Shown here piece after piece: positions 17,166 to 59,300 of a stretch of 64,000 nt of DNA (position 1 is its first letter; each line of letters opens with the position of its first letter). Under the pieces are notes generated by a model that was not told the origin of the DNA, did no database searches, and saw nothing but the letters and a program-made list of their open reading frames with translations. The DNA is from Scolanthus callimorphus (taxonomy: Eukaryota > Cnidaria > Anthozoa > Actiniaria > Edwardsiidae), in assembly GCA_033964015.1 (NCBI GenBank), contig CM066912.1:20881073-20945072 (forward strand), written 5' to 3'. The translations under genes and the position numbers were made by a program.

Positions 17166-17171
17166 GTAACT

Positions 17172-29529: not shown

Positions 29530-30007
29530 TTACCCAAGTTTGGTCACCTAGCGATGTTGCCTTCCTGAGATATTCACTTTTCTAGTTTTGATGACGTCAT
29601 GTCACGTGACCTTGACTGTGCACCCCTTGCCTTCAAAATAACTTTACCCAAGTTCGGTCAACTAGCGATGTTACTTCTTGAGATATTGACATTTCTAGTT
29701 TTGGTGACGTCATCGATGACGTCATGTCACGTGACCTGGTAGTGCACCCCCTGCGTCCAAAATACCTAGCAATGTTGCGTTCTCGAGATATAGACTTTTC
29801 TAGTTTTGATGACGTCATCGATGACGTCATGTCACGTGACCTGGAAGTGAACTCCCCTTGCCTCCAAAATAACTTTATCCAAGTTTGGTCACCTAACGAT
29901 GTTGCCTTCTTGAGATATTGACTTTTTTGTTTTGATGACGTCATCGATGACGTCATGTCACGTGACCTTGGAGGTGCACTCCCCTTGCCTCCAAAATAAC
30001 TTTACCC
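29530..30007. repeat. CRE-rich minisatellite, copy cluster 3 (truncated by the array)
   Basis: About four units, several with the full TGACGTCATCGATGACGTCA palindrome and GTCACGTGAC. It stops in mid-unit after 'aactttaccca', where the first 1104-bp unit begins. Confidence 0.9.
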
Positions 30008-33000
30008 ATGTTATAAATATTGCCGACAGCCCACTAGCTACATTTGTAAATAGAACTGCTAAGAATTCTAAGTGGCATTGCTTTCAGATTGTTCGGAATA
30101 GGTTGTAAGCGCGAGAAAGTATGACGTCAGGAACAAACTCGAGAGGAATGACCTCTCAACCAAAACAAACACGGAGCCGCGGTCTCGGTGTCAGTCCAGG
30201 TTCAGGAAACATTTCCTTCAGTAAGTTCAAGGTGTCCATAGTCAAAGTCTTAAGGTGTTTCACTAAGTCAAAGGCCACGGTATAGACGTTAATAAAACGC
30301 TTTCGTTGTGGCCCTGTTGTGAGAAACACGATTGGACTTTAAGACCATTGAATCGGCGCTTACAAAAAGCGAACGTTTTGCATATTTTCAGCAGGCGCAG
30401 CATTTCCAGGCGAGTCTCTTTAGAAACCTTTACTATTAAGAATAGACAGGCTATATCCGATAAGATGACTCAGATGTTTGGGCTGCACGGCTTAGGTTGC
30501 TAGAAGTTCATATGCTCGCATTTTTTGGATTGGATCTTATGGACAAAACATATAAAATGTAGTGTGCGTGAAAGATCCATAGTAAGAGGCGAGTCCGTTG
30601 ACGGTTTTCCTGAAAACCGCTCTTAGATAGCTAAAGTATTTGGAAGACCGGTTTCGGTATCCTGAAAAGGGTACCTTCGTCAGTTCCGTATAGCTAAGTC
30701 TGAGATCGTCGGTGCGCTCGTATTCACAAGCAGTAGGGGACAATCTCGCTAGTCGGAGACAAACAACAGCATATATATGCAAGTCGAAAGCAACTCATTG
30801 CGCATGAGCGACTTGGAAGTTACTGGCAGCTGATTGGTTTATCCAATCAGAACACACAACAAAGAGCTATTGTTAGTTCCCGCGTCTTGTCATTTGTGAT
30901 GTTTCACAAAATGCAAATAGACGGAGAGATTTAGTTGCTCAAATGTGTGAAAATTTTGCCAGTAGACGTTGAATTCTGTTTAACAGTTCTATTATTGGCA
31001 AAAGGTGGACTGGTAAAAAAAGCCCGGTTGCCTGGCTCAAATGTAGGTTTACGAATAGCGTAAGGGTTACAGGGGCTAGTGGAGTTTAAGACCGAAGTCT
31101 AAGTCAAGTACATGTTATAAATATTGCCGACAGTCCACTAGCTACATTTGTAAATAGAACTGCTAAGAATTCTAAGTGGCATTGCTTTCAGATTGTTCGG
31201 AATAGGTTGTAAGCGCGAGAAAGTATGACGTCAGGAACAAACTCGAGAGGAATGACCTCTCAACCAAAACAAACACGGAGCCGCGGTGTCGGTGTCAGTC
31301 CAGGTTCAGGAAACATTTCCTTCAGTAAGTTCAAGGTGTCCATAGTCAAAGTCTTAAGGTGTTTCACTAAGTCAAAGGCCACGGTATAGACGTTAATAAA
31401 ACGCTTTCGTTGTGGCCCTGTTGTGAGAAACACGATTGGACTTTAAGACCATTGAATCGGCGCTTACAAAAAGCGAACGTTTTGCATATTTTCAGCAGGC
31501 GCAGCATTTCCAGGCGAGTCTCTTTAGAAACCTTTACTATTAAGAATAGACAGGCTATATCCGATAAGATGACTCAGATGTTTGGGCTGCACGGCTTAGG
31601 TTGCTAGAAGTTCATATGCTCGAATTTTTGGATTGGATCTTATGGACAAAACATATAAATGTAGTGTGCGTGAAAGATCCATAGTAAGAGGCGAGTCCGT
31701 TGACGGTTTTCCTGAAAACCGCTCTTAGATAGCTAAAGTATTTGGAAGACCGGTTTCGGTATCCTGAAAAGGGTACCTTCGTCAGTTCCGTATAGCTAAG
31801 TCTGAGATCGTCGGTGCGCTCGTATTCACAAGCAGTAGGGGACAATCTCGCTAGTCGGAGACAAACAACAGCATATATATGCAAGTCGAAAGCAACTCAT
31901 TGCGCATGAGCGACTTGGAAGTTACTGGCAGCTGATTGGTTTATCCAATCAGAACACACAACAAAGAGCTATTGTTAGTTCCCGCGTCTTGTCATTTGTG
32001 ATGTTTCACAAAATGCAAATAGACGGAGAGATTTAGTTGCTCAAATGTGTGAAAATTTTGCCAGTAGACGTTGAATTCTGTTTAACAGTTCTATTATTGG
32101 CAAAAGGTGGACTGGTAAAAAAAGCCCGGTTGCCTGGCTCAAATGTAGGTTTACGAATAGCGTAAGGGTTACAGGGGCTAGTGGAGTTTAAGACCGAAGT
32201 CTAAGTCAAGTACATGTTATAAATATTGCCGACAGTCCACTAGCTACATTTGTAAATAGAACTGCTAAGAATTCTAAGTGGCATTGCTTTCAGATTGTTC
32301 GGAATAGGTTGTAAGCGCGAGAAAGTATGACGTCAGGAACAAACTCGAGAGGAATGACCTCTCAACCAAAACAAACACGGAGCCGCGGTGTCGGTGTCAG
32401 TCCAGGTTCAGGAAACATTTCCTTCAGTAAGTTCAAGGTGTCCATAGTCAAAGTCTTAAGGTGTTTCACTAAGTCAAAGGCCACGGTATAGACGTTAATA
32501 AAACGCTTTCGTTGTGGCCCTGTTGTGAGAAACACGATTGGACTTTAAGACCATTGAATCGGCGCTTACAAAAAGCGAACGTTTTGCATATTTTCAGCAG
32601 GCGCAGCATTTCCAGGCGAGTCTCTTTAGAAACCTTTACTATTAAGAATAGACAGGCTATATCCGATAAGATGACTCAGATGTTTGGGCTGCACGGCTTA
32701 GGTTGCTAGAAGTTCATATGCTCGCATTTTTTGGATTGGATCTTATGGACAAAACATATAAAATGTAGTGTGCGTGAAAGATCCATAGTAAGAGGCGAGT
32801 CCGTTGACGGTTTTCCTGAAAACCGCTCTTAGATAGCTAAAGTATTTGGAAGACCGGTTTCGGTATCCTGAAAAGGGTACCTTCGTCAGTTCCGTATAGC
32901 TAAGTCTGAGATCGTCGGTGCGCTCGTATTCACAAGCAGTAGGGGACAATCTCGCTAGTCGGAGACAAACAACAGCATATATATGCAAGTCGAAAGCAAC

Positions 33001-36000
33001 TCATTGCGCATGAGCGACTTGGAAGTTACTGGCAGCTGATTGGTTTATCCAATCAGAACACACAACAAAGAGCTATTGTTAGTTCCCGCGTCTTGTCATT
33101 TGTGATGTTTCACAAAATGCAAATAGACGGAGAGATTTAGTTGCTCAAATGTGTGAAAATTTTGCCAGTAGACGTTGAATTCTGTTTAACAGTTCTATTA
33201 TTGGCAAAAGGTGGACTGGTAAAAAAAGCCCGGTTGCCTGGCTCAAATGTAGGTTTACGAATAGCGTAAGGGTTACAGGGGCTAGTGGAGTTTAAGACCG
33301 AAGTCTAAGTCAAGTACATGTTATAAATATTGCCGACAGCCCACTAGCTACATTTGTAAATAGAACTGCTAAGAATTCTAAGTGGCATTGCTTTCAGATT
33401 GTTCGGAATAGGTTGTAAGCGCGAGAAAGTATGACGTCAGGAACAAACTCGAGAGGAATGACCTCTCAACCAAAACAAACACGGAGCCGCGGTCTCGGTG
33501 TCAGTCCAGGTTCAGGAAACATTTCCTTCAGTAAGTTCAAGGTGTCCATAGTCAAAGTCTTAAGGTGTTTCACTAAGTCAAAGGCCACGGTATAGACGTT
33601 AATAAAACGCTTTCGTTGTGGCCCTGTTGTGAGAAACACGATTGGACTTTAAGACCATTGAATCGGCGCTTACAAAAAGCGAACGTTTTGCATATTTTCA
33701 GCAGGCGCAGCATTTCCAGGCGAGTCTCTTTAGAAACCTTTACTATTAAGAATAGACAGGCTATATCCGATAAGATGACTCAGATGTTTGGGCTGCACGG
33801 CTTAGGTTGCTAGAAGTTCATATGCTCGCATTTTTTGGATTGGATCTTATGGACAAAACATATAAAATGTAGTGTGCGTGAAAGATCCATAGTAAGAGGC
33901 GAGTCCGTTGACGGTTTTCCTGAAAACCGCTCTTAGATAGCTAAAGTATTTGGAAGACCGGTTTCGGTATCCTGAAAAGGGTACCTTCGTCAGTTCCGTA
34001 TAGCTAAGTCTGAGATCGTCGGTGCGCTCGTATTCACAAGCAGTAGGGGACAATCTCGCTAGTCGGAGACAAACAACAGCATATATATGCAAGTCGAAAG
34101 CAACTCATTGCGCATGAGCGACTTGGAAGTTACTGGCAGCTGATTGGTTTATCCAATCAGAACACACAACAAAGAGCTATTGTTAGTTCCCGCGTCTTGT
34201 CATTTGTGATGTTTCACAAAATGCAAATAGACGGAGAGATTTAGTTGCTCAAATGTGTGAAAATTTTGCCAGTAGACGTTGAATTCTGTTTAACAGTTCT
34301 ATTATTGGCAAAAGGTGGACTGGTAAAAAAAGCCCGGTTGCCTGGCTCAAATGTAGGTTTACGAATAGCGTAAGGGTTACAGGGGCTAGTGGAGTTTAAG
34401 ACCGAAGTCTAAGTCAAGTACATGTTATAAATATTGCCGACAGCCCACTAGCTACATTTGTAAATAGAACTGCTAAGAATTCTAAGTGGCATTGCTTTCA
34501 GATTGTTCGGAATAGGTTGTAAGCGCGAGAAAGTATGACGTCAGGAACAAACTCGAGAGGAATGACCTCTCAACCAAAACAAACACGGAGCCGCGGTGTC
34601 GGTGTCAGTCCAGGTTCAGGAAACATTTCCTTCAGTAAGTTCAAGGTGTCCATAGTCAAAGTCTTAAGGTGTTTCACTAAGTCAAAGGCCACGGTATAGA
34701 CGTTAATAAAACGCTTTCGTTGTGGCCCTGTTGTGAGAAACACGATTGGACTTTAAGACCATTGAATCGGCGCTTACAAAAAGCGAACGTTTTGCATATT
34801 TTCAGCAGGCGCAGCATTTCCAGGCGAGTCTCTTTAGAAACCTTTACTATTAAGAATAGACAGGCTATATCCGATAAGATGACTCAGATGTTTGGGCTGC
34901 ACGGCTTAGGTTGCTAGAAGTTCATATGCTCGCATTTTTTGGATTGGATCTTATGGACAAAACATATAAAATGTAGTGTGCGTGAAAGATCCATAGTAAG
35001 AGGCGAGTCCGTTGACGGTTTTCCTGAAAACCGCTCTTAGATAGCTAAAGTATTTGGAAGACCGGTTTCGGTATCCTGAAAAGGGTACCTTCGTCAGTTC
35101 CGTATAGCTAAGTCTGAGATCGTCGGTGCGCTCGTATTCACAAGCAGTAGGGGACAATCTCGCTAGTCGGAGACAAACAACAGCATATATATGCAAGTCG
35201 AAAGCAACTCATTGCGCATGAGCGACTTGGAAGTTACTGGCAGCTGATTGGTTTATCCAATCAGAACACACAACAAAGAGCTATTGTTAGTTCCCGCGTC
35301 TTGTCATTTGTGATGTTTCACAAAATGCAAATAGACGGAGAGATTTAGTTGCTCAAATGTGTGAAAATTTTGCCAGTAGACGTTGAATTCTGTTTAACAG
35401 TTCTATTATTGGCAAAAGGTGGACTGGTAAAAAAAGCCCGGTTGCCTGGCTCAAATGTAGGTTTACGAATAGCGTAAGGGTTACAGGGGCTAGTGGAGTT
35501 TAAGACCGAAGTCTAAGTCAAGTACATGTTATAAATATTGCCGACAGCCCACTAGCTACATTTGTAAATAGAACTGCTAAGAATTCTAAGTGGCATTGCT
35601 TTCAGATTGTTCGGAATAGGTTGTAAGCGCGAGAAAGTATGACGTCAGGAACAAAGTCGAGAGGAATGACCTCTCAACCAAAACAAACACGGAGCCGCGG
35701 TCTCGGTGTCAGTCCAGGTTCAGGAAACATTTCCTTCAGTAAGTTCAAGGTGTCCATAGTCAAAGTCTTAAGGTGTTTCACTAAGTCAAAGGCCACGGTA
35801 TAGACGTTAATAAAACGCTTTCGTTGTGGCCCTGTTGTGAGAAACACGATTGGACTTTAAGACCATTGAATCGGCGCTTACAAAAAGCGAACGTTTTGCA
35901 TATTTTCAGCAGGCGCAGCATTTCCAGGCGAGTCTCTTTAGAAACCTTTACTATTAAGAATAGACAGGCTATATCCGATAAGATGACTCAGATGTTTGGG

Positions 36001-39000
36001 CTGCACGGCTTAGGTTGCTAGAAGTTCATATGCTCGCATTTTTTGGATTGGATCTTATGGACAAAACATATAAAATGTAGTGTGCGTGAAAGATCCATAG
36101 TAAGAGGCGAGTCCGTTGACGGTTTTCCTGAAAACCGCTCTTAGATAGCTAAAGTATTTGGAAGACCGGTTTCGGTATCCTGAAAAGGGTACCTTCGTCA
36201 GTTCCGTATAGCTAAGTCTGAGATCGTCGGTGCGCTCGTATTCACAAGCAGTAGGGGACAATCTCGCTAGTCGGAGACAAACAACAGCATATATATGCAA
36301 GTCGAAAGCAACTCATTGCGCATGAGCGACTTGGAAGTTACTGGCAGCTGATTGGTTTATCCAATCAGAACACACAACAAAGAGCTATTGTTAGTTCCCG
36401 CGTCTTGTCATTTGTGATGTTTCACAAAATGCAAATAGACGGAGAGATTTAGTTGCTCAAATGTGTGAAAATTTTGCCAGTAGACGTTGAATTCTGTTTA
36501 ACAGTTCTATTATTGGCAAAAGGTGGACTGGTAAAAAAAGCCCGGTTGCCTGGCTCAAATGTAGGTTTACGAATAGCGTAAGGGTTACAGGGGCTAGTGG
36601 AGTTTAAGACCGAAGTCTAAGTCAAGTACATGTTATAAATATTGCCGACAGCCCACTAGCTACATTTGTAAATAGAACTGCTAAGAATTCTAAGTGGCAT
36701 TGCTTTCAGATTGTTCGGAATAGGTTGTAAGCGCGAGAAAGTATGACGTCAGGAACAAACTCGAGAGGAATGACCTCTCAACCAAAACAAACACGGAGCC
36801 GCGGTGTCGGTGTCAGTCCAGGTTCAGGAAACATTTCCTTCAGTAAGTTCAAGGTGTCCATAGTCAAAGTCTTAAGGTGTTTCACTAAGTCAAAGGCCAC
36901 GGTATAGACGTTAATAAAACGCTTTCGTTGTGGCCCTGTTGTGAGAAACACGATTGGACTTTAAGACCATTGAATCGGCGCTTACAAAAAGCGAACGTTT
37001 TGCATATTTTCAGCAGGCGCAGCATTTCCAGGCGAGTCTCTTTAGAAACCTTTACTATTAAGAATAGACAGGCTATATCCGATAAGATGACTCAGATGTT
37101 TGGGCTGCACGGCTTAGGTTGCTAGAAGTTCATATGCTCGCATTTTTTGGATTGGATCTTATGGACAAAACATATAAAATGTAGTGTGCGTGAAAGATCC
37201 ATAGTAAGAGGCGAGTCCGTTGACGGTTTTCCTGAAAACCGCTCTTAGATAGCTAAAGTATTTGGAAGACCGGTTTCGGTATCCTGAAAAGGGTACCTTC
37301 GTCAGTTCCGTATAGCTAAGTCTGAGATCGTCGGTGCGCTCGTATTCACAAGCAGTAGGGGACAATCTCGCTAGTCGGAGACAAACAACAGCATATATAT
37401 GCAAGTCGAAAGCAACTCATTGCGCATGAGCGACTTGGAAGTTACTGGCAGCTGATTGGTTTATCCAATCAGAACACACAACAAAGAGCTATTGTTAGTT
37501 CCCGCGTCTTGTCATTTGTGATGTTTCACAAAATGCAAATAGACGGAGAGATTTAGTTGCTCAAATGTGTGAAAATTTTGCCAGTAGACGTTGAATTCTG
37601 TTTAACAGTTCTATTATTGGCAAAAGGTGGACTGGTAAAAAAAGCCCGGTTGCCTGGCTCAAATGTAGGTTTACGAATAGCGTAAGGTTACAGGGGCTAG
37701 TGGAGTTTAAGACCGAAGTCTAAGTCAAGTACATGTTATAAATATTGCCGACAGCCCACTAGCTACATTTGTAAATAGAACTGCTAAGAATTCTAAGTGG
37801 CATTGCTTTCAGATTGTTCGGAATAGGTTGTAAGCGCGAGAAAGTATGACGTCAGGAACAAACTCGAGAGGAATGACCTCTCAACCAAAACAAACACGGA
37901 GCCGCGGTCTCGGTGTCAGTCCAGGTTCAGGAAACATTTCCTTCAGTAAGTTCAAGGTGTCCATAGTCAAAGTCTTAAGGTGTTTCACTAAGTCAAAGGC
38001 CACGGTATAGACGTTAATAAAACGCTTTCGTTGTGGCCCTGTTGTGAGAAACACGATTGGACTTTAAGACCATTGAATCGGCGCTTACAAAAAGCGAACG
38101 TTTTGCATATTTTCAGCAGGCGCAGCATTTCCAGGCGAGTCTCTTTAGAAACCTTTACTATTAAGAATAGACAGGCTATATCCGATAAGATGACTCAGAT
38201 GTTTGGGCTGCACGGCTTAGGTTGCTAGAAGTTCATATGCTCGCATTTTTTGGATTGGATCTTATGGACAAAACATATAAAATGTAGTGTGCGTGAAAGA
38301 TCCATAGTAAGAGGCGAGTCCGTTGACGGTTTTCCTGAAAACCGCTCTTAGATAGCTAAAGTATTTGGAAGACCGGTTTCGGTATCCTGAAAAGGGTACC
38401 TTCGTCAGTTCCGTATAGCTAAGTCTGAGATCGTCGGTGCGCTCGTATTCACAAGCAGTAGGGGACAATCTCGCTAGTCGGAGACAAACAACAGCATATA
38501 TATGCAAGTCGAAAGCAACTCATTGCGCATGAGCGACTTGGAAGTTACTGGCAGCTGATTGGTTTATCCAATCAGAACACACAACAAAGAGCTATTGTTA
38601 GTTCCCGCGTCTTGTCATTTGTGATGTTTCACAAAATGCAAATAGACGGAGAGATTTAGTTGCTCAAATGTGTGAAAATTTTGCCAGTAGACGTTGAATT
38701 CTGTTTAACAGTTCTATTATTGGCAAAAGGTGGACTGGTAAAAAAAGCCCGGTTGCCTGGCTCAAATGTAGGTTTACGAATAGCGTAAGGGTTACAGGGG
38801 CTAGTGGAGTTTAAGACCGAAGTCTAAGTCAAGTACATGTATAAATATTGCCGACAGCCCACTAGCTACATTTGTAAAGAACTGCTAAGAATTCTAAGTG
38901 GCATTGCTTTCAGATTGTTCGGAATAGGTTGTAAGCGCGAGAAAGTATGACGTCAGGAACAAACTCGAGAGGAATGACCTCTCAACCAAAACAAACACGG

Positions 39001-39391
39001 AGCCGCGGTGTCGGTGTCAGTCCAGGTTCAGGAAACATTTCCTTCAGTAAGTTCAAGGTGTCCATAGTCAAAGTCTTAAGGTGTTTCACTAAGTCAAAGG
39101 CCACGGTATAGACGTTAATAAAACGCTTTCGTTGTGGCCCTGTTGTGAGAAACACGATTGGACTTTAAGACCATTGAATCGGCGCTTACAAAAAGCGAAC
39201 GTTTTGCATATTTTCAGCAGGCGCAGCATTTCCAGGCGAGTCTCTTTAGAAACCTTTACTATTAAGAATAGACAGGCTATATCCGATAAGATGACTCAGA
39301 TGTTTGGGCTGCACGGCTTAGGTTGCTAGAAGTTCATATGCTCGCATTTTTTGGATTGGATCTTATGGACAAAACATATAAATGTAGTGTG
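30007..39391 (-). repeat. array segment 1: 8.5 units (ribozyme on minus strand)
   Basis: Hammerhead motifs on the minus strand at 30622-30698, 31724-31800, 32828-32904, 33932-34008, 35036-35112, 36140-36216, 37244-37320 and 38347-38423. The ninth unit is cut at 39391, about 60 bp before its ribozyme. A diagnostic site reads ggtCtcgg in units starting at 30007, 33317, 35525 and 37732, but ggtGtcgg in those at 31111, 32213, 34421, 36629 and 38836. From 33317 onward the two forms alternate strictly, suggesting a two-unit higher-order repeat. Confidence 0.93.
30622..30698 (-). ncRNA. type I hammerhead ribozyme (reference copy for minus-strand units)
   Basis: Reverse-complement copy of the motif at 44652-44728 with identical core, stem II, ACCGGT stem III and stem I. 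In this part of the array the cleaved RNA would be transcribed leftward, so the two array halves are convergent in sequence but would be transcribed away from the 39391 junction outward to the left and to the right. Confidence 0.7.
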
Positions 39392-42300
39392 CAACGAAAG
39401 CGTTTTATTAACGTCTATACCGTGGCTTTTGACTTAGTGAAACATCTTAAGGCTTTGACTATGGACACCTTGAACTTACTGAAGGAAATGTTTCCTGAAC
39501 CTGGACTGACACCGAGACCGCGGCTCCTTGTTTGTTTTGGTTGAGAGGTCATTCCTCTCTAGTTTGTTCCTGACGTCATAGTTTCTCGCGCTTACAACCT
39601 ATTCCGAACAATCTGAAAGCAATGCCACTTAGAATTCTTAGCAGTTCTATTTACAAATGTAGCTAGTGGGCTGTCGGCAATATTTATAACATGTACTTGA
39701 CTTAGACTTCGGTCTTAAACTCCACTAGCCCCTGTAACCCTTACGCTATTCGTAAACCTACATTTGAGCCAGGCAACCGGGCTTTTTTTACCAGTCCACC
39801 TTTTGCCAATAATAGAACTGTTAAACAGAATTCAACGTCTACTGGCAAAATTTTCACACATTTGAGCAACTAAATCTCTCCGTCTATTTGCATTTTGTGA
39901 AACATCACAAATGACAAGACGCGGGAACTAACAATAGCTCTTTGTTGTGTGTTCTGATGGGATAAACCAATCAGCTGCCAGTAACTTCTAAGTCGCTCAT
40001 GCGCAATGAATTGCTTTCGACTTGCATATATATGCTGTTGTTTGTTTCCGACTAGCGAGATTGTCCCCTACTGCTTGTGAATACGAGCGCACCGACGATC
40101 TCAGACTTAGCTATACGGAACTGACGAAGGTACCCTTTTCAGGATACCGAAACCGGTCTTCCAAATACTTTAGCTATCTAAGAGCGGTTTTCAGGAAAAC
40201 CGTCAACGGACTCGCCTCTTACTATGGATCTTTCACGCACACTACATTTTATATGTTTTTGTCCATAAGATCCAATCTAAAAATGCGAGCATATGAACTT
40301 CTAGCAACCAAAGCCGTGCAGCTCAAACATCTGAGTCATCTTATCGGATATAACCTGTCTATTTTTAATAGTAAAGGTTTCTAAAGAGACTCGCCTGGAA
40401 ATGCTGCGTCTGCTTAACATATGCAAAACGTTCGCGTTTTGTAAGCGCTGATTCAATGGTCTTAAAGTCCAATCGTGTTTCTCACAACAGGGCCGCAACG
40501 AAAGCGTTTTATTAACGTCTATACCGTGGCTTTTGACTTAGTGAAACATCTTAAGGCTTTGACTATGGACACCTTGAACTTACTGAAGGAAATGTTTCCT
40601 GAACCTGGACTGACACCGAGACCGCGGCTCCTTGTTTGTTTTGGTTGAGAGGTCATTCCTCTCTAGTTTGTTCCTGACGTCATAGTTTCTCGCGCTTACA
40701 ACCTATTCCGAACAATCTGAAAGCAATGCCACTTAGAATTCTTAGCAGTTCTATTTACAAATGTAGCTAGTGGGCTGTCGGCAATATTTATAACATGTAC
40801 TTGACTTAGACTTCGGTCTTAAACTCCACTAGCCCCTGTAACCCTTACGCTATTCGTAAACCTACATTTGAGCCAGGCAACCGGGCTTTTTTTACCAGTC
40901 CACCTTTTGCCAATATAGAACTGTTAAACAGAATTCAACGTCTACTGGCAAAATTTTCACACATTTGAGCAACTAAATCTCTCCGTCTATTTGCATTTTG
41001 TGAAACATCACAAATGACAAGACGCGGGAACTAACAATAGCTCTTTGTTGTGTGTTCTGATGGGATAAACCAATCAGCTGCCAGTAACTTCTAAGTCGCT
41101 CATGCGCAATGAATTGCTTTCGACTTGCATATATATGCTGTTGTTTGTTTCCGACTAGCGAGATTGTCCCCTACTGCTTGTGAATACGAGCGCACCGACG
41201 ATCTCAGACTTAGCTATACGGAACTGACGAAGGTACCCTTTTCAGGATACCGAAACCGGTCTTCCAAATACTTTAGCTATCTAAGAGCGGTTTTCAGGAA
41301 AACCGTCAACGGACTCGCCTCTTACTATGGATCTTTCACGCACACTACATTTTATATGTTTTGTCCATAAGATCCAATCTAAAAATGCGAGCATATGAAC
41401 TTCTAGCAACCAAAGCCGTGCAGCTCAAACATCTGAGTCATCTTATCGGATATAACCTGTCTATTTTTAATAGTAAAGGTTTCTAAAGAGACTCGCCTGG
41501 AAATGCTGCGTCTGCTTAACATATGCAAAACGTTCGCGTTTTGTAAGCGCTGATTCAATGGTCTTAAAGTCCAATCGTGTTTCTCACAACAGGGCCGCAA
41601 CGAAAGCGTTTTATTAACGTCTATACCGTGGCTTTTGACTTAGTGAAACATCTTAAGGCTTTGACTATGGACACCTTGAACTTACTGAAGGAAATGTTTC
41701 CTGAACCTGGACTGACACCGAGACCGCGGCTCCTTGTTTGTTTTGGTTGAGAGGTCATTCCTCTCTAGTTTGTTCCTGACGTCATAGTTTCTCGCGCTTA
41801 CAACCTATTCCGAACAATCTGAAAGCAATGCCACTTAGAATTCTTAGCAGTTCTATTTACAAATGTAGCTAGTGGGCTGTCGGCAATATTTATAACATAA
41901 ACAGAATTCAACGTCTACTGGCAAAATTTTCACACATTGAGCAACTAAATCTCTCCGTCTATTTGCATTTTGTGAAACATCACAAATGACAAGACGCGGG
42001 AACTAACAATAGCTCTTTGTTGTGTGTTCTGATGGGATAAACCAATCAGCTGCCAGTAACTTCTAAGTCGCTCATGCGCAATGAATTGCTTTCGACTTGC
42101 ATATATATGCTGTTGTTTGTTTCCGACTAGCGAGATTGTCCCCTACTGCTTGTGAATACGAGCGCACCGACGATCTCAGACTTAGCTATACGGAACTGAC
42201 GAAGGTACCCTTTTCAGGATACCGAAACCGGTCTTCCAAATACTTTAGCTATCTAAGAGCGGTTTTCAGGAAAACCGTCAACGGACTCGCCTCTTACTAT

Positions 42301-43957: not shown

Positions 43958-44116
43958 ACGTCTATACCGTGGCCTTTGACTTAGTGAAACACCTTAAGAC
44001 TTTGACTATGGACACCTTGAACTTACTGAAGGAATGTTTCCTGAACCTGGACTGACACCGACACCGCGGCTCCGTGTTTGTTTTGGTTGAGAGGTCATTC
44101 CTCTCGAGTTTGTTCC

Positions 44117-44124
44117 TGACGTCA
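44117..44124 (+). promoter_or_regulatory. TGACGTCA (CRE-type) site in the array unit
   Basis: A perfect TGACGTCA occurs once per unit in the 'ttcctgacgtcata' context, in both orientations across the array. The flanking minisatellites carry the same octamer many times. Confidence 0.5.
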
Positions 44125-44499
44125 TACTTTCTCGCGCTTACAACCTATTCCGAACAATCTGAAAGCAATGCCACTTAGAATTCTTAGCAGTTCTATTTAC
44201 AAATGTAGCTAGTGGGCTGTCGGCAATATTTATAACATGTACTTGACTTAGACTTCGGTCTTAAACTCCACTAGCCCCTGTAACCCTTACGCTATTCGTA
44301 AACCTACATTTGAGCCAGGCAACCGGGCTTTTTTTACCAGTCCACCTTTTGCCAATAATAGAACTGTTAAACAGAATTCAACGTCTACTGGCAAAATTTT
44401 CACACATTTGAGCAACTAAATCTCTCCGTCTATTTGCATTTTGTGAAACATCACAAATGACAAGACGCGGGAACTAACAATAGCTCTTTGTTGTGTGTT

Positions 44500-44651: not shown

Positions 44652-44728
44652 CTTAGCTATACGGAACTGACGAAGGTACCCTTTTCAGGATACCGAAACC
44701 GGTCTTCCAAATACTTTAGCTATCTAAG
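44652..44728 (+). ncRNA. type I hammerhead ribozyme (reference copy for plus-strand units)
   Basis: Core CTGACGA at 44667-44673; GAAA at 44695-44698; cleavage predicted after C44704 (GGTC, H17=C). Stem I: GGAA (44663-44666) pairs with TTCC (44705-44708) right against the core. After an asymmetric internal loop, TAGCTA (44654-44659) pairs with TAGCTA (44717-44722). Stem II: GGTA/TACC and CC/GG with one C-A mismatch and loop TTTTCA (44675-44694). Stem III is ACCGGT without a loop. It is self-complementary, so cleavage would favour pairing of two units, as known for minimal-stem-III hammerheads of Penelope-like elements and satellites. Departure from the consensus: an extra A (44674) between the core and stem II. 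Not shown to be active. Confidence 0.72.
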
Positions 44729-47700: not shown

Positions 47701-50700
47701 GGCAAAATTTTCACACATTTGAGCAACTAAATCTCTCCGTCTATTTGCATTTTGTGAAACATCACAAATGACAAGACGCGGGAACTAACAATAGCTCTTT
47801 GTTGTGTGTTCTGATTGGATAAACCAATCAGCTGCCAGTAACTTCCAAGTCGCTCATGCGCAATGAGTTGCTTTCGACTTGCATATATATGCTGTTGTTT
47901 GTCTCCGACTAGCGAGATTGTCCCCTACTGCTTGTGAATACGAGCGCACCGACGATCTCAGACTTAGCTATACGGAACTGACGAAGGTACCCTTTTCAGG
48001 ATACCGAAACCGGTCTTCCAATACTTTAGCTATCTAAGAGCGGTTTTCAGGAAAACCGTCAACGGACTCGCCTCTTACTATGGATCTTTCACGCACACTA
48101 CATTTTATATGTTTTGTCCATAAGATCCAATCCAAAAAATGCGAGCATATGAACTTCTAGCAACCTAAGCCGTGCAGCCCAAACATCTGAGTCATCTTAT
48201 CGGATATAGCCTGTCTATTCTTAATAGTAAAGGTTTCTAAAGAGACTCGCCTGGAAATGCTGCGCCTGCTGAAAATATGCAAAACGTTCGCTTTTTGTAA
48301 GCGCCGATTCAATGGTCTTAAAGTCCAATCGTGTTTCTCACAACAGGGCCACAACGAAAGCGTTTTATTAACGTCTATACCGTGGCCTTTGACTTAGTGA
48401 AACACCTTAAGACTTTGACTATGGACACCTTGAACTTACTGAAGGAAATGTTTCCTGAACCTGGACTGACACCGACACCGCGGCTCCGTGTTTGTTTTGG
48501 TTGAGAGGTCATTCCTCTCGAGTTTGTTCCTGACGTCATACTTTCTCGCGCTTACAACCTATTCCGAACAATCTGAAAGCAATGCCACTTAGAATTCTTA
48601 GCAGTTCTATTTACAAATGTAGCTAGTGGGCTGTCGGCAATATTTATAACATGTACTTGACTTAGACTTCGGTCTTAAACTCCACTAGCCCCTGTAACCC
48701 TTACGCTATTCGTAAACCTACATTTGAGCCAGGCAACCGGGCTTTTTTTACCAGTCCACCTTTTGCCAATAATAGAACTGTTAAACAGAATTCAACGTCT
48801 ACTGGCAAAATTTTCACACATTTGAGCAACTAAATCTCTCCGTCTATTTGCATTTTGTGAAACATCACAAATGACAAGACGCGGGAACTAACAATAGCTC
48901 TTTGTTGTGTGTTCTGATTGGATAAACCAATCAGCTGCCAGTAACTTCCAAGTCGCTCATGCGCAATGAGTTGCTTTCGACTTGCATATATATGCTGTTG
49001 TTTGTCTCCGACTAGCGAGATTGTCCCCTACTGCTTGTGAATACGAGCGCACCGACGATCTCAGACTTAGCTATACGGAACTGACGAAGGTACCCTTTTC
49101 AGGATACCGAAACCGGTCTTCCAAATACTTTAGCTATCTAAGAGCGGTTTTCAGGAAAACCGTCAACGGACTCGCCTCTTACTATGGATCTTTCACGCAC
49201 ACTACATTTTATATGTTTTGTCCATAAGATCCAATCCAAAAAATGCGAGCATATGAACTTCTAGCAACCTAAGCCGTGCAGCCCAAACATCTGAGTCATC
49301 TTATCGGATATAGCCTGTCTATTCTTAATAGTAAAGGTTTCTAAAGAGACTCGCCTGGAAATGCTGCGCCTGCTGAAAATATGCAAAACGTTCGCTTTTT
49401 GTAAGCGCCGATTCAATGGTCTTAAAGTCCAATCGTGTTTCTCACAACAGGGCCACAACGAAAGCGTTTTATTAACGTCTATACCGTGGCCTTTGACTTA
49501 GTGAAACACCTTAAGACTTTGACTATGGACACCTTGAACTTACTGAAGGAAATGTTTCCTGAACCTGGACTGACACCGACACCGCGGCTCCGTGTTTGTT
49601 TTGGTTGAGAGGTCATTCCTCTCGAGTTTGTTCCTGACGTCATACTTTCTCGCGCTTACAACCTATTCCGAACAATCTGAAAGCAATGCCACTTAGAATT
49701 CTTAGCAGTTCTATTTACAAATGTAGCTAGTGGGCTGTCGGCAATATTTATAACATGTACTTGACTTAGACTTCGGTCTTAAACTCCACTAGCCCCTGTA
49801 ACCCTTACGCTATTCGTAAACCTACATTTGAGCCAGGCAACCGGGCTTTTTTTTACCAGTCCACCTTTTGCCAATAATAGAACTGTTAAACAGAATTCAA
49901 CGTCTACTGGCAAAATTTTCACACATTTGAGCAACTAAATCTCTCCGTCTATTTGCATTTTGTGAAACATCACAAATGACAAGACGCGGGAACTAACAAT
50001 AGCTCTTTGTTGTGTGTTCTGATTGGATAAACCAATCAGCTGCCAGTAACTTCCAAGTCGCTCATGCGCAATGAGTTGCTTTCGACTTGCATATATATGC
50101 TGTTGTTTGTCTCCGACTAGCGAGATTGTCCCCTACTGCTTGTGAATACGAGCGCACCGACGATCTCAGACTTAGCTATACGGAACTGACGAAGGTACCC
50201 TTTTCAGGATACCGAAACCGGTCTTCCAAATACTTTAGCTATCTAAGAGCGGTTTTCAGGAAAACCGTCAACGGACTCGCCTCTTACTATGGATCTTTCA
50301 CGCACACTACATTTTATATGTTTTGTCCATAAGATCCAATCCAAAAAATGCGAGCATATGAACTTCTAGCAACCTAAGCCGTGCAGCCCAAACATCTGAG
50401 TCATCTTATCGGATATAGCCTGTCTATTCTTAATAGTAAAGGTTTCTAAAGAGACTCGCCTGGAAATGCTGCGCCTGCTGAAAATATGCAAAACGTTCGC
50501 TTTTTGTAAGCGCCGATTCAATGGTCTTAAAGTCCAATCGTGTTTCTCACAACAGGGCCACAACGAAAGCGTTTTATTAACGTCTATACCGTGGCCTTTG
50601 ACTTAGTGAAACACCTTAAGACTTTGACTATGGACACCTTGAACTTACTGAAGGAAATGTTTCCTGAACCTGGACTGACACCGACACCGCGGCTCCGTGT

Positions 50701-53700
50701 TTGTTTTGGTTGAGAGGTCATTCCTCTCGAGTTTGTTCCTGACGTCATACTTTCTCGCGCTTACAACCTATTCCGAACAATCTGAAAGCAATGCCACTTA
50801 GAATTCTTAGCAGTTCTATTTACAAATGTAGCTAGTGGGCTGTCGGCAATATTTATAACATGTACTTGACTTAGACTTCGGTCTTAAACTCCACTAGCCC
50901 CTGTAACCCTTACGCTATTCGTAAACCTACATTTGAGCCAGGCAACCGGGCTTTTTTTACCAGTCCACCTTTTGCCAATAATAGAACTGTTAAACAGAAT
51001 TCAACGTCTACTGGCAAAATTTTCACACATTTGAGCAACTAAATCTCTCCGTCTATTTGCATTTTGTGAAACATCACAAATGACAAGACGCGGGAACTAA
51101 CAATAGCTCTTTGTTGTGTGTTCTGATTGGATAAACCAATCAGCTGCCAGTAACTTCCAAGTCGCTCATGCGCAATGAGTTGCTTTCGACTTGCATATAT
51201 ATGCTGTTGTTTGTCTCCGACTAGCGAGATTGTCCCCTACTGCTTGTGAATACGAGCGCACCGACGATCTCAGACTTAGCTATACGGAACTGACGAAGGT
51301 ACCCTTTTCAGGATACCGAAACCGGTCTTCCAAATACTTTAGCTATCTAAGAGCGGTTTTCAGGAAAACCGTCAACGGACTCGCCTCTTACTATGGATCT
51401 TTCACGCACACTACATTTTATATGTTTTGTCCATAAGATCCAATCCAAAAAATGCGAGCATATGAACTTCTAGCAACCTAAGCCGTGCAGCCCAAACATC
51501 TGAGTCATCTTATCGGATATAGCCTGTCTATTCTTAATAGTAAAGGTTTCTAAAGAGACTCGCCTGGAAATGCTGCGCCTGCTGAAAATATGCAAAACGT
51601 TCGCTTTTTGTAAGCGCCGATTCAATGGTCTTAAAGTCCAATCGTGTTTCTCACAACAGGGCCACAACGAAAGCGTTTTATTAACGTCTATACCGTGGCC
51701 TTTGACTTAGTGAAACACCTTAAGACTTTGACTATGGACACCTTGAACTTACTGAAGGAAATGTTTCCTGAACCTGGACTGACACCGACACCGCGGCTCC
51801 GTGTTTGTTTTGGTTGAGAGGTCATTCCTCTCGAGTTTGTTCCTGACGTCATACTTTCTCGCGCTTACAACCTATTCCGAACAATCTGAAAGCAATGCCA
51901 CTTAGAATTCTTAGCAGTTCTATTTACAAATGTAGCTAGTGGGCTGTCGGCAATATTTATAACATGTACTTGACTTAGACTTCGGTCTTAAACTCCACTA
52001 GCCCCTGTAACCCTTACGCTATTCGTAAACCTACATTTGAGCCAGGCAACCGGGCTTTTTTTACCAGTCCACCTTTTGCCAATAATAGAACTGTTAAACA
52101 GAATTCAACGTCTACTGGCAAAATTTTCACACATTTGAGCAACTAAATCTCTCCGTCTATTTGCATTTTGTGAAACATCACAAATGACAAGACGCGGGAA
52201 CTAACAATAGCTCTTTGTTGTGTGTTCTGATTGGATAAACCAATCAGCTGCCAGTAACTTCCAAGTCGCTCATGCGCAATGAGTTGCTTTCGACTTGCAT
52301 ATATATGCTGTTGTTTGTCTCCGACTAGCGAGATTGTCCCCTACTGCTTGTGAATACGAGCGCACCGACGATCTCAGACTTAGCTATACGGAACTGACGA
52401 AGGTACCCTTTTCAGGATACCGAAACCGGTCTTCCAAATACTTTAGCTATCTAAGAGCGGTTTTCAGGAAAACCGTCAACGGACTCGCCTCTTACTATGG
52501 ATCTTTCACGCACACTACATTTTATATGTTTTGTCCATAAGATCCAATCCAAAAAATGCGAGCATATGAACTTCTAGCAACCTAAGCCGTGCAGCCCAAA
52601 CATCTGAGTCATCTTATCGGATATAGCCTGTCTATTCTTAATAGTAAAGGTTTCTAAAGAGACTCGCCTGGAAATGCTGCGCCTGCTGAAAATATGCAAA
52701 ACGTTCGCTTTTTGTAAGCGCCGATTCAATGGTCTTAAAGTCCAATCGTGTTTCTCACAACAGGGCCACAACGAAAGCGTTTTATTAACGTCTATACCGT
52801 GGCCTTTGACTTAGTGAAACACCTTAAGACTTTGACTATGGACACCTTGAACTTACTGAAGGAAATGTTTCCTGAACCTGGACTGACACCGACACCGCGG
52901 CTCCGTGTTTGTTTTGGTTGAGAGGTCATTCCTCTCGAGTTTGTTCCTGACGTCATACTTTCTCGCGCTTACAACCTATTCCGAACAATCTGAAAGCAAT
53001 GCCACTTAGAATTCTTAGCAGTTCTATTTACAAATGTAGCTAGTGGGCTGTCGGCAATATTTATAACATGTACTTGACTTAGACTTCGGTCTTAAACTCC
53101 ACTAGCCCCTGTAACCCTTACGCTATTCGTAAACCTACATTTGAGCCAGGCAACCGGGCTTTTTTTACCAGTCCACCTTTTGCCAATAATAGAACTGTTA
53201 AACAGAATTCAACGTCTACTGGCAAAATTTTCACACATTTGAGCAACTAAATCTCTCCGTCTATTTGCATTTTGTGAAACATCACAAATGACAAGACGCG
53301 GGAACTAACAATAGCTCTTTGTTGTGTGTTCTGATTGGATAAACCAATCAGCTGCCAGTAACTTCCAAGTCGCTCATGCGCAATGAGTTGCTTTCGACTT
53401 GCATATATATGCTGTTGTTTGTCTCCGACTAGCGAGATTGTCCCCTACTGCTTGTGAATACGAGCGCACCGACGATCTCAGACTTAGCTATACGGAACTG
53501 ACGAAGGTACCCTTTTCAGGATACCGAAACCGGTCTTCCAAATACTTTAGCTATCTAAGAGCGGTTTTCAGGAAAACCGTCAACGGACTCGCCTCTTACT
53601 ATGGATCTTTCACGCACACTACATTTTATATGTTTTGTCCATAAGATCCAATCCAAAAAATGCGAGCATATGAACTTCTAGCAACCTAAGCCGTGCAGCC

Positions 53701-56380
53701 CAAACATCTGAGTCATCTTATCGGATATAGCCTGTCTATTCTTAATAGTAAAGGTTTCTAAAGAGACTCGCCTGGAAATGCTGCGCCTGCTGAAAATATG
53801 CAAAACGTTCGCTTTTTGTAAGCGCCGATTCAATGGTCTTAAAGTCCAATCGTGTTTCTCACAACAGGGCCACAACGAAAGCGTTTTATTAACGTCTATA
53901 CCGTGGCCTTTGACTTAGTGAAACACCTTAAGACTTTGACTATGGACACCTTGAACTTACTGAAGGAAATGTTTCCTGAACCTGGACTGACACCGACACC
54001 GCGGCTCCGTGTTTGTTTTGGTTGAGAGGTCATTCCTCTCGAGTTTGTTCCTGACGTCATACTTTCTCGCGCTTACAACCTATTCCGAACAATCTGAAAG
54101 CAATGCCACTTAGAATTCTTAGCAGTTCTATTTACAAATGTAGCTAGTGGGCTGTCGGCAATATTTATAACATGTACTTGACTTAGACTTCGGTCTTAAA
54201 CTCCACTAGCCCCTGTAACCCTTACGCTATTCGTAAACCTACATTTGAGCCAGGCAACCGGGCTTTTTTTACCAGTCCACCTTTTGCCAATAATAGAACT
54301 GTTAAACAGAATTCAACGTCTACTGGCAAAATTTTCACACATTTGAGCAACTAAATCTCTCCGTCTATTTGCATTTTGTGAAACATCACAAATGACAAGA
54401 CGCGGGAACTAACAATAGCTCTTTGTTGTGTGTTCTGATTGGATAAACCAATCAGCTGCCAGTAACTTCCAAGTCGCTCATGCGCAATGAGTTGCTTTCG
54501 ACTTGCATATATATGCTGTTGTTTGTCTCCGACTAGCGAGATTGTCCCCTACTGCTTGTGAATACGAGCGCACCGACGATCTCAGACTTAGCTATACGGA
54601 ACTGACGAAGGTACCCTTTTCAGGATACCGAAACCGGTCTTCCAAATACTTTAGCTATCTAAGAGCGGTTTTCAGGAAAACCGTCAACGGACTCGCCTCT
54701 TACTATGGATCTTTCACGCACACTACATTTTATATGTTTTGTCCATAAGATCCAATCCAAAAAATGCGAGCATATGAACTTCTAGCAACCTAAGCCGTGC
54801 AGCCCAAACATCTGAGTCATCTTATCGGATATAGCCTGTCTATTCTTAATAGTAAAGGTTTCTAAAGAGACTCGCCTGGAAATGCTGCGCCTGCTGAAAA
54901 TATGCAAAACGTTCGCTTTTTGTAAGCGCCGATTCAATGGTCTTAAAGTCCAATCGTGTTTCTCACAACAGGGCCACAACGAAAGCGTTTTATTAACGTC
55001 TATACCGTGGCCTTTGACTTAGTGAAACACCTTAAGACTTTGACTATGGACACCTTGAACTTACTGAAGGAAATGTTTCCTGAACCTGGACTGACACCGA
55101 CACCGCGGCTCCGTGTTTGTTTTGGTTGAGAGGTCATTCCTCTCGAGTTTGTTCCTGACGTCATACTTTCTCGCGCTTACAACCTATTCCGAACAATCTG
55201 AAAGCAATGCCACTTAGAATTCTTAGCAGTTCTATTTACAAATGTAGCTAGTGGGCTGTCGGCAATATTTATAACATGTACTTGACTTAGACTTCGGTCT
55301 TAAACTCCACTAGCCCCTGTAACCCTTACGCTATTCGTAAACCTACATTTGAGCCAGGCAACCGGGCTTTTTTTACCAGTCCACCTTTTGCCAATAATAG
55401 AACTGTTAAACAGAATTCAACGTCTACTGGCAAAATTTTCACACATTTGAGCAACTAAATCTCTCCGTCTATTTGCATTTTGTGAAACATCACAAATGAC
55501 AAGACGCGGGAACTAACAATAGCTCTTTGTTGTGTGTTCTGATTGGATAAACCAATCAGCTGCCAGTAACTTCCAAGTCGCTCATGCGCAATGAGTTGCT
55601 TTCGACTTGCATATATATGCTGTTGTTTGTCTCCGACTAGCGAGATTGTCCCCTACTGCTTGTGAATACGAGCGCACCGACGATCTCAGACTTAGCTATA
55701 CGGAACTGACGAAGGTACCCTTTTCAGGATACCGAAACCGGTCTTCCAAATACTTTAGCTATCTAAGAGCGGTTTTCAGGAAAACCGTCAACGGACTCGC
55801 CTCTTACTATGGATCTTTCACGCACACTACATTTTATATGTTTTGTCCATAAGATCCAATCCAAAAATGCGAGCATATGAACTTCTAGCAACCTAAGCCG
55901 TGCAGCCCAAACATCTGAGTCATCTTATCGGATATAGCCTGTCTATTCTTAATAGTAAAGGTTTCTAAAGAGACTCGCCTGGAAATGCTGCGCCTGCTGA
56001 AAATATGCAAAACGTTCGCTTTTTGTAAGCGCCGATTCAATGGTCTTAAAGTCCAATCGTGTTTCTCACAACAGGGCCACAACGAAAGCGTTTTATTAAC
56101 GTCTATACCGTGGCCTTTGACTTAGTGAAACACCTTAAGACTTTGACTATGGACACCTTGAACTTACTGAAGGAAATGTTTCCTGAACCTGGACTGACAC
56201 CGACACCGCGGCTCCGTGTTTGTTTTGGTTGAGAGGTCATTCCTCTCGAGTTTGTTCCTGACGTCATACTTTCTCGCGCTTACAACCTATTCCGAACAAT
56301 CTGAAAGCAATGCCACTTAGAATTCTTAGCAGTTCTATTTACAAATGTAGCTAGTGGGCTGTCGGCAATATTTATAACAT

Positions 56381-59300
56381 GTGTCTGAACTCAAAAGGCA
56401 ACACGTCTTTTCTTATAGTTTAAAGGATAATTATTTATTCCATTTCGATAAAACTGGAAGTGCATGAGTTAGGGCGTGGGTCTACATGCGAATTTGCCCA
56501 TTGCACCATGGTCCATTTTCACACGAATGTACATGCGTGTATCTTGAACGCAACGCCCTCTGTTACTGATTTTATGTGATAATGAATTCCATCTTGGAAC
56601 TCTGGAAGTACATATCAGGGTGGTGTCCCGTATAGTAGAATTGTAGGGTATTGAATACTCTGTCACGATACAAAATTTCGTGTCCGAACTCAAAGACAAC
56701 ACGTCATTTTATCAGTTTAAAGGATAATTATTCCACTGCTATACAACTGGAAGTATACGTTATCGAGGGTGGGTCTACATCCAGAATTGCTCAGCATGGA
56801 CGCTCTATCATCCTGCCAAGTTTCATGCTTTTTCCATCAAAATGAACAATTTACTACTTTTCTGCACGATATTCCTGCACTATTCTTGAGATATTGATTT
56901 CTTTTGCTTCGATGACGTCATTCCGGACGAACGAACGAACGAACGCACAAACCGGAAGTCCATGACAGAATCGTTGGATGATGCATCATATACACTTTTT
57001 TTTTTGTTCCTTTTTTCTCCTGCATGTAGCTATGGGTTCGCTCGTGGGCGCCTTCGGCGCCCGCGGGAGCTCCGCTACTAACTCCGATCTCCCCAACGTT
57101 TGTACTGACAGGGTAGGAGGAGCGGAGAAACAAGAGATGACGCATTGGCCAGATCCTCACGTATACTTCCACCTCTCAATGACAAGCAACTCTGATCCCA
57201 GCTCGCTCAACAGGCACTATAATAGCGCAGAGATTACCGAGTTTGCGAGGCACGGCGTCCCAAATCATCGTGATGAGGTGTTTGACCTGCACCCGCTATC
57301 CCTTTTTCTATCCCTTTTTTTTCCTGAAAATCTCTTTCTTCCTTAAAATAAGTCCCCGTACTTCCGCTTTCAGATAACAGAAACGGCACAAGAAATTCAA
57401 TAAACAGGTGAAAATCGGAAATCGAAAGCGCAAAAAAGCCGAAAGCAGAATTGCCAGTTTTGATCACGGATTCAATCCGGGATCCAGGAGTAAGGGTTCC
57501 GGGATCCAGAGTTATGGGATGCGGGATCCAGAGTGAGGGATCCGATCCAGAGCATGGGATCCTGGACGGGATCAAAACTTATGAGGATCCCATTGCACGG
57601 ACCGAAACCTTCAGTATAAAATTGTGGCAGTTCATAGAACGAGGATGCCCTAGCTTGTTTAATAGTAATTTAAAATTCCAGATGTCGAGATGAGAAATAC
57701 GTATCGGGGATTTTCACGCCAAACACAAACTGCCTGCTGTTTACAGAGATGAGTAAGCGCAGCCACTCAAGAAAGGGGGAATCCCCTCACAAATTATTCA
57801 GAAACTAAGGTATTCAATACTAATAGATTCAAAACCTCCGTTGGACCGAAAGATATGCTCAGTGTTTTCCTCTCAGTGTTTTCGAAAACCCGTTTGTTTT
57901 CGTGTTGTAGTGTGTACGTCCTGCCCTCTAAACGAAAACTCCTAAAGTACTATAATATTCCACGAATGCCATTGATATATTTGTAGGTATAGGAATTAAC
58001 GAGCTTCTCTCAGACAGGAAGTCCTAGAATCCCCCGAATGGTCTCTGAAAAATCTACTGCTGCTCGCAGCTCGCGCAACGATGATTTTAGCGGTGCTCAC
58101 TTTGCTCGCGGAGTATTATTCGGTGCTCGTTTGCTCGCCAATAATGAACAATGATGGTTGGTGTGCTCGCAAAAAGTGATCCAAAAGAGTTTTCTAAGTG
58201 CTCGGGGCTAGCAGTTTCTTCAAAATGAAAACGCTCGGTCTCCCGCAAAAAAAAAGAAGACAGTGCTCGACAAGTTTGTTCCTCGCCAAGGACCATATTT
58301 GTGGGCCCTTAATTAAGATATTGGGTGAAGCCGGTTATGCCTACCTTTCAGTTGCGATGAGACGATCTTTGTATAATATCTTTGTCTCTGGATCCTCTTC
58401 CAAAAAACGAGTATTATTTCAGAGCTTTGGTCATACCAAATATTGAGATTTACACTGATGAAGGAAGGAAAAGTAGTTTCGAAACGTTTAACTTCCAGTA
58501 CCTTCGTACAGACTGTAGATTCTATTTAGACGGACGAAAATCAAGCCGCCGTCATGTGATGTTTTCAAGTTTCAAGGGAAATCCCCTGTAGATTCTGGTT
58601 GGATAGACGATATCACGCCACATTCATGTGATGTTTACAAAGTTTCGTTTTAATGAGGGAATCCCGTAATAAGATATTCAGCCAAGGTTTGAGTTTTACT
58701 ATAAACAAGACGCCTTAGATTGTTCGTGCGGAAACTCAAATAAGTCTCGGCCATATAATACACTCCATCAGGAACTGATATGTCTACAAGGAGCCCACGA
58801 GTTATATGGGAAAATAGATGCCATTCCACGTCTGTATGCTAGTCCGAAGGAGACAAAAAAAAAGCTCTCTTTTTTAATATTAAATTTGAAGACTTTCACA
58901 TCAAGGACCCTTTTAGTCGACCAAAATTGATTGATTTTGTGTCAAGTTGCACATTTTTACAAATCAAGAAGGGAGAATTACGCTTTCCATCACAATGCGA
59001 TACGATGATCTTTGGTATACTTTTAACACGTGTACACACATTTTAATATATAGATTTAGCCACTGGCTAAAAGCGGAGCTCCCGGTTACCTATTTTTATA
59101 AAAGGTGCGTTTACCTATCTTGTTGGGCCGTTGCTAGGGAAAATTATAAGTCTTGCAAAAGATTAATAATGTGACGTGTCGCGACATCACTTGCTACAGA
59201 AAACAATCTTGTTCTCCCAAGTTTACCCAAGTTTGGTCACCTAGCGATGTTGCCTTCCTGAGATATTCACTTTTCTAGTTTTGATGACGTCATGTCACGT

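Follow-up and report, generated by a model that had tools for sequence, protein, structure and literature searches.

Analysis of a 64,000-nt stretch of the Scolanthus callimorphus genome (Cnidaria, Anthozoa; GenBank assembly GCA_033964015.1, contig CM066912.1, positions 20,881,073 to 20,945,072 of the forward strand), referred to here in its full length as the window, showed that a 26-kb block of it (30009-56379) is made up of a tandem repeat with a modal unit length of 1104 bp, and that every full unit carries a motif resembling the type I hammerhead ribozyme. The array is most likely a recent reverse-transcribed insertion lying between near-identical direct repeats. Judging from its sequence, the repeat itself may be a non-coding, non-autonomous retroelement related to the Penelope-like elements (PLEs) in both its ribozyme and its style of insertion, a proposal that we hold at about even confidence. 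A preliminary description of the window had reported a 1104-bp hammerhead satellite of 23 copies at 30007..56381. Its unit count stands and its coordinates were right to within a few bases, but it did not mention that the array changes strand at ~39394, with eight units on the minus strand and 15 on the plus strand.

The 23 full or near-full units measure 972-1105 bp, and three partial pieces (279, 298, and 557 bp) all lack the hammerhead-like motif. Units lie on the minus strand left of 39394 and on the plus strand right of it, i.e., head-to-head. The unit has a GC content of 0.42-0.43 and is numbered here from the first base after TTTATAACA (position 1). The array falls into four blocks, which are given below with the junction between its halves and the direct repeats on either side.

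30009..39394, minus strand: block 1, subfamily A, eight full units and a 557-bp 5'-truncated unit; the 3' end, TTTATAACA, adjoins the left flank at 30009 and the 5' end is the head-to-head junction
39395..41897, plus strand: block 2, subfamily B, a 298-bp partial unit followed by two full ones; from unit position ~806 (5' end) to TTTATAACA(T) (3' end)
41898..43958, plus strand: block 3, two units of subfamily B, 972 and 1089 bp long; from unit position ~132 (5' end) to TTTATAACA (3' end)
43959..56379, plus strand: block 4, subfamily A, a 279-bp partial unit and 11 full units; 5' end at unit position ~825, 3' end TTTATAACA(T), adjoining the right flank
39385..39404, no strand assigned: head-to-head junction, unit position ~546 joined to ~806 with, by reading, ~2 nt of overlap
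26676..30012, plus strand: left 3.3-kb direct repeat, its alignment extending ~3 bases into the start of the array
56381..59709, plus strand: right 3.3-kb direct repeat

Read on the ribozyme strand, the 3' ends of all four blocks (30009, 41897, 43958, and 56379) fall at TTTATAACA within 1-2 nt, while the 5' ends of blocks 1-4 are variable (unit positions ~546, ~806, ~132, and ~825). By our own estimate, which assumes random ends, the chance of three further 3' ends coinciding is of the order of 1e-7. A fixed 3' end, variable 5' ends, and head-to-head copies, which are features of PLE-style insertion, are present at this one locus; in place of the short target duplication expected of that style, there is a direct duplication of 3.3 kb. 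An alignment of the two flank copies over 3350 columns shows seven substitutions, of which one falls at the array boundary, together with 29 indel events, almost all of them length changes in short runs. Since the left start and the right end of this repeat each continue in their own flanking repeats, the array lies between copies of one target stretch, and for the same reason we rejected a duplicated element of the long terminal repeat (LTR) type as the source of the flanks. Inverted duplication of one array end was also rejected, since the flanks are direct rather than inverted copies and such an event cannot account for both outer ends. With seven substitutions in the 3.3-kb duplication and none among the 11 full units of block 4, both are recent. 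The preliminary description had suggested a non-autonomous, RNA-based element, and the anatomy of the insertion (common 3' ends, variable 5' ends, head-to-head halves, flank duplication) lends that suggestion independent support.

Subfamily B is confined to blocks 2 and 3 (39395-43958) and is ~2% different from subfamily A, from which it is separated by 22 substitutions, a few of them not fixed, and one fixed 1-base indel. Read from A to B on the ribozyme strand, the changes are mostly C to T, with nine of this kind against two G to A, a weak strand asymmetry. Within block 1, the bases at unit position 929, followed outward from 39394, are C,G,C,G,C,G,C,C,G, a pattern such as a dimeric template, or amplification of a dimer, might leave.

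The unit holds short reading frames only, and we therefore rejected a protein-coding role: the longest stop-to-stop frame in the listed units is 85 aa, and a scan of six unit frames gave no Pfam match above cut-off, neither reverse transcriptase nor GIY-YIG, the three weak matches below cut-off being given no weight. An array of known RNA genes (5S, U-snRNA, etc.) was rejected, Rfam giving no match at gathering thresholds over the 64 kb or at E<=10 over 3.6 kb. Upstream of the motif, unit positions 195-345 contain, in order, the octamer ATTTGCAT, CCAAT in both orientations within a hairpin, and GCATATATATGC, which together look promoter-like. The unit had no match among plasmids and phages, and a 20-mer from it had a single match among bacterial and archaeal genomes, in Erwinia, which we took as chance; these collections are thought to hold few or no animal genomes, so that absence from them means little.

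A serious contender, though on balance an unlikely one, is that the array is an ordinary satellite shaped at the DNA level by unequal crossing-over, break-induced replication, and fold-back inversion, with breaks concentrated at a fragile AT-rich stem-loop at the unit boundary and with the hammerhead as an inert relic of a founding PLE fragment. The homogeneity of the units and the C/G alternation at position 929 do look like tandem-DNA turnover, the common breakpoint would be looped out by a 7-bp helix that can potentially form across the unit boundary (CTAGTGG/CCACTAG, positions 1076 and 31), and the microhomology at the junctions amounts, by reading, to only ~1-2 nt. However, both of the opposed outer ends and the two inner junctions use the same side of that site, when breakage would expose either side equally, and the 3.3-kb direct duplication, being recent, speaks for a single insertion event.

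The core of type I hammerheads consists of CUGANGA and GAA(A), with an H17 cleavage site and with stem I open to the flanks, and all 23 full units have these features. In unit coordinates, the core CTGACGA begins at 430 and cleavage is predicted after C467. Stem I is GGAA/TTCC, with an outer helix TAGCTA/TAGCTA possible; an extra A separates CTGACGA from stem II, GGTA(C)CC-TTTTCA-GG(A)TACC, which has one C.A mismatch; and GAA on the 3' side of stem II is followed by a stem III that is the loopless palindrome ACCGGT. A search for CTGANGA followed by ACCGGT found 23 occurrences: the eight minus-strand ones have their core starts between 30683 and 38408, the 15 plus-strand ones between 40121 and 55706. 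Two examples, one from each half, are as follows.

55702..55747, plus strand: representative motif, core at 55706-55712, predicted cleavage after the C at 55743
30642..30687, minus strand: left-half motif, identical, core starting at 30683

All 23 units, whichever subfamily they belong to, share the same 46 nt from stem I to stem I (GGAA-CTGACGA...GAAACCGGTC-TTCC), which bears out the core, the GGAA/TTCC stem I, and the loopless ACCGGT ascribed to every full unit by the preliminary description. Its claim of a stem II at the 7-bp level did not hold, the helix GGTA-C-CC/GG-A-TACC being interrupted by the C.A mismatch and preceded by the extra A, so that no 10.1-11.1 pair stacks stem II directly on the core. 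Statements here on published systems refer to excerpts of the papers cited. An extra A at this place (A10) occurs in a viroid plus hammerhead, with a moderate loss of trans-cleavage (PMC3705267). Since stem III is self-complementary and loopless, a monomer cannot close it but two copies can; every full unit combines this palindrome with a tandem setting that allows dimers, and dimeric hammerheads are described as requiring both a stem III palindrome and tandem motifs (PMC6466107). The unit's motif is, as its sequence suggests, most likely a genuine minimal hammerhead of the PLE type, and it resembles the minimal hammerheads of PLEs more than the canonical ones of retrozymes. Penelope hammerheads presumably read like it.

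To gauge the chance level, we used a strict descriptor (at least four pairs in stems I and II, at least three in stem III, extra base optional). Of 20000 dinucleotide shuffles of the unit, searched on both strands, 2 satisfied it, and it had no match in 37.6 kb of flanks. A relaxed descriptor (stem III of at least two pairs, stem I of at least three) found one motif in the flanks, on the minus strand at 7926.

7889..7930, minus strand: independent minimal hammerhead-like motif, TGCC-CTGAAGA-A-GAGCT-AAAGTAAA-AGCTT-GAA-ACGT-T-GGCA

With its 4-bp stem I, extra A, and loopless palindromic ACGT as stem III, this motif has the architecture of the unit's. A descriptor restricted to a loopless stem III, drawn up once both motifs were known and leaving the extra A optional, found at least one match in 11 of 16034 shuffles of 38.7 kb (the flanks plus one unit) and two matches in 0 of 16034; the real sequence has two, in the unit and at 7926, both with the extra A. 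Given the motif of the unit, the probability of a second is ~0.0007. Rfam returned no hammerhead for the 7926 motif, only two weak small nucleolar RNA matches on the opposite strand. The motif adjoins a 104-bp tandem repeat (7540-7815) and is possibly a solo Penelope pseudo-LTR. Hammerhead patterns were also sought in viral contigs, a collection presumed to hold few or no animal genomes: several searches gave 0 matches, one pattern scan matched at least 120 stretches, which we took as chance, and 121 viral loci yielded three weak motifs, identical in sequence and with a stem III of 2 nt, likewise taken as chance. The central observation of the preliminary description, a minimal-stem-III type I hammerhead in a non-coding tandem unit as in PLEs, is therefore supported, the motif being present in 23 of 23 units and beyond chance, with the reservation that its stem II is imperfect and that it has no Rfam match.

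This array bears on how animal hammerhead satellites and retrozymes enter new genomic places. Penelope-like enzymes have been named as strong candidates for the mobilization of retrozymes, and the excerpted account describes no insertion event (PMC7229834). We propose, tentatively and with clearly less confidence than the retroelement reading itself, that the repeat is a ribozyme element with no protein of its own, which would rely on a borrowed Penelope-type enzyme and integrate in the form of an inverted array, with both target strands priming at one RNA site, each run copying more than 10 units from a circle or multimer, and jumps occurring at the same site. In the retroelement reading itself, transcripts of the array would contain a minimal type I hammerhead every 1104 nt, and two neighboring motifs would have to pair through the palindromic ACCGGU to form an active double hammerhead. 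A reverse transcriptase acting in trans, most likely from a PLE, would start copying at a fixed RNA position, TTTATAACA, which is the 3' end of every block. Priming would take place from both target strands, nicked ~3.3 kb apart, and both primers may, by our reading of the junctions, pair over ~2 nt with RNA just beyond the start. Such priming at a fixed RNA site would place the same terminal bases outward at both outer ends and leave the halves head-to-head. Each side would copy many units and then jump to a new template, and re-starting there at TTTATAACA would give the inner junctions; the two complementary DNAs (cDNAs) would be joined head-to-head by microhomology. Fill-in of the two nicked ends, for which nicks 3.3 kb apart are needed, would produce the direct duplication, for which tandem duplication during repair is an alternative source. 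Several of these steps have counterparts in PLEs. The purified anole PLE protein cleaves and extends both strands and initiates reverse transcription at two adjacent internal positions of the RNA, and the anole hammerhead needs protein for cleavage and is dispensable for insertion in vitro (Frangieh et al., PMC11167929). In rotifer Penelope elements, head-to-head is the most frequent inverted arrangement, template jumps are discussed, and target duplications are 8-10 bp (PMC3846280).

A number of results weigh against the retroelement reading or this mechanism. The preliminary description had set beforehand a covariance-model match as the check on the ribozyme and its absence as refuting; the search was run and Rfam gave no hammerhead match at any setting, with 0 matches at gathering thresholds over the whole 64 kb, 0 at E<=10 over 3.6 kb (29900-33500), and, when the 91 bp surrounding a single motif were searched at E<=10, nothing but an unrelated match of 7.3 bits, to a bacterial small RNA family. 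Since Rfam misses the 7926 motif as well, its silence on the unit is weak evidence, provided that the 7926 motif is genuine. At -31.5 kcal/mol, the dimeric hammerhead falls short in stability of both the best fold of two strands (-39.0) and two self-folded monomers (2 x -16.4). In the circular fold of the whole unit, stem II is present, and GAAACCG is paired with a downstream CGGTTTT, so that the ribozyme would be masked. For the circular unit, the z of the fold energy was -6.9 (ribozyme strand) and -4.6 (opposite strand); however, four of 12 flanking segments of equal length had a lower z than the unit, and an argument for a structured RNA from fold energy was dropped on this account. The proposed start site, TTTATAACA, lies ~637 nt downstream of the predicted cleavage site, compared with ~85-92 nt in the excerpted account of the anole PLE, and the 3.3-kb duplication far exceeds the 8-10 bp of the rotifer elements. 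Neither reverse transcriptase nor GIY-YIG was found in 20 scanned flank open reading frames (76 of at least 80 aa being listed) or in the six unit frames scanned. The alternation of block 1 units at position 929 implies that this block, at least, was not copied from a single monomeric circle, unless its units changed later, and the evidence for insertion comes from one locus.

The longest stretch free of A/B substitutions (378 bp, unit positions 995-1104 plus 1-267) spans the common block end (P = 0.001 for its place), and the second longest, 231 bp, surrounds the motif (P = 0.037 under random placement), both tests having been done after the fact. Gene conversion between subfamilies could give such stretches, so that they are weak evidence. 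The case for selection on the ribozyme from the 231-bp stretch is likewise weak, since a longer one lies elsewhere and conversion could have the same effect. Among 13 substitutions at predicted paired sites, eight keep and five break pairs; nine more are at unpaired sites.

That the likeness to a hammerhead is a coincidence in a hairpin-rich repeat appears quite unlikely to us. At minimum energy the segment does fold locally into an imperfect rod that pairs ACTG with CGGT, Rfam lends no support, and the loopless descriptor was framed with both motifs in view; moreover, the window is rich in inverted repeats, so the shuffles may understate the chance rate. Against these points stand the rate of only 2 in 20000 unit shuffles and the flank motif at 7926, a second and independent one that shares the architecture.

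The preliminary description had placed the repeat near retrozymes, PLEs, and hammerhead satellites; the PLE-like minimal hammerhead fits this kinship, while the retrozyme part is doubtful, the unit measuring 1104 bp against ~170-400 nt. As a strict metazoan retrozyme, a special case of the retroelement reading, the repeat would self-cleave, its monomers would circularize, and 1104-nt circles would be reverse-transcribed in a rolling manner. A tandem non-coding unit with a type I hammerhead and a GC content of 0.42-0.43 is in keeping with this, and the absence of substitutions among the 11 units of block 4 would be expected from repeated copying of one circle. We nevertheless find it decidedly improbable, since published animal retrozyme RNAs are ~170-400 nt with mostly canonical hammerheads held by tertiary contacts (PMC7229834), block 1 alternates between two variants, and the block ends lie away from the cleavage site. 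Both the coincidence and the strict retrozyme are compatible with a reverse-transcribed insertion, and the chances assigned to the rival explanations therefore overlap.

An assembly error, with the 3.3-kb duplication and the inverted array arising from a false join of haplotypes or array ends, is highly improbable: the 29 flank-copy indels, nearly all in short-run length, do point to unpolished long-read sequence, but the head-to-head junction joins unrelated unit positions with ~2 nt of overlap, an unlikely choice for an assembler, and the junctions at 26676 and 59709 look ancestral, continuing in their own repeats.

If an element of this kind does borrow a Penelope-type enzyme, ribozyme satellites could arrive fully formed, as inverted arrays of 26 kb established by a single event, as opposed to slow unequal exchange. 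The locus keeps what appears to be the full set of junctions from one recent event, comprising both primed ends, the points of template jumping, and the place where the two cDNAs meet, and the PLE hypothesis becomes testable by where other copies of the repeat end.

Elsewhere in the window, an inverted repeat (16235-17174 and 20177-21132; 92% identical over ~968 bp) bounds ~3 kb and looks like a fold-back element or one with long terminal inverted repeats. Two further pairs of inverted copies, ~91% identical (23957-24361 and 25065-25469; 3231-3546 and 24713-25021), resemble miniature inverted-repeat transposable elements. On the minus strand, 11950-15446 holds a gene for a TPR-CHAT protein with ~17 similar 120-bp TPR repeats, split over several frames, which is either a pseudogene or the result of sequence error. 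A ~127-bp minisatellite with a palindromic GATGACGTCATCGATGACGTCAT core recurs at 600-1150, 25497-25818, 29526-30012, and 59219-60399, in opposite orientations too, and a run of 32 G occupies 10025-10056. The pieces of the TPR-CHAT gene and the minisatellites are reminiscent of cnidarian genomes.

The titles and abstract openings listed by searches of open-licence papers contained no 1.1-kb minimal-hammerhead satellite and no comparable inverted insertion, which is no proof of absence. Among known hammerhead satellites, those of newts and axolotl and the W-elements of Schistosoma (W25.2, W26.2, W27.2, and W36.2/SMalpha) share a very short stem III with the present unit, and newt and axolotl hammerheads act as dimers; the likeness is one of architecture, and the units are shorter, 330-350 bp in newts and axolotl and 333-428 bp in Schistosoma (PMC8490949 for the latter), compared with 1104 bp. 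The Dolichopoda satellite pDo500 also carries a hammerhead, for which a single or a double form has been proposed, but in the double form of this cave-cricket repeat stem III stays inside one copy (PMC2837043), whereas here it could form only between two copies.

Metazoan non-LTR retrozymes (coral, mussel, axolotl) are similar in being arrays of a non-coding tandem unit with a type I hammerhead and a GC content below 50%. Arrays in the coral reach 62-mers, and the mobilization of retrozymes by PLEs is presumed; in a coral, retrozymes occur in tandem repeats alongside thousands of minimal PLE-type hammerheads (PMC7229834). The present repeat departs from retrozymes, which pair a unit of ~170-400 nt with a canonical hammerhead, in its 1104-bp unit and its minimal motif, and no loop-loop contacts were identified in it.

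The closest resemblance is to PLEs (Penelope, Poseidon; Terminons), whose minimal type I hammerheads have no proper helix III and possibly cleave in dimeric form (PMC7761336, PMC6155905). Tandem or partly tandem copies, 5' truncation, head-to-head inversion, and, as proposed here, a fixed internal start of reverse transcription are common to both. Both also have a TATATA box on the upstream side of the ribozyme, at position ~336 of the present unit; a rotifer pseudo-LTR has TATATATA. The array differs in that its unit has no reverse transcriptase/GIY-YIG reading frame and a proposed start site much farther from the ribozyme, and in that it holds 23 full units in one insertion with a target duplication of 3.3 kb rather than 8-10 bp. 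These comparisons suggest that minimal, dimer-dependent hammerheads extend beyond coding PLEs and short repeats.

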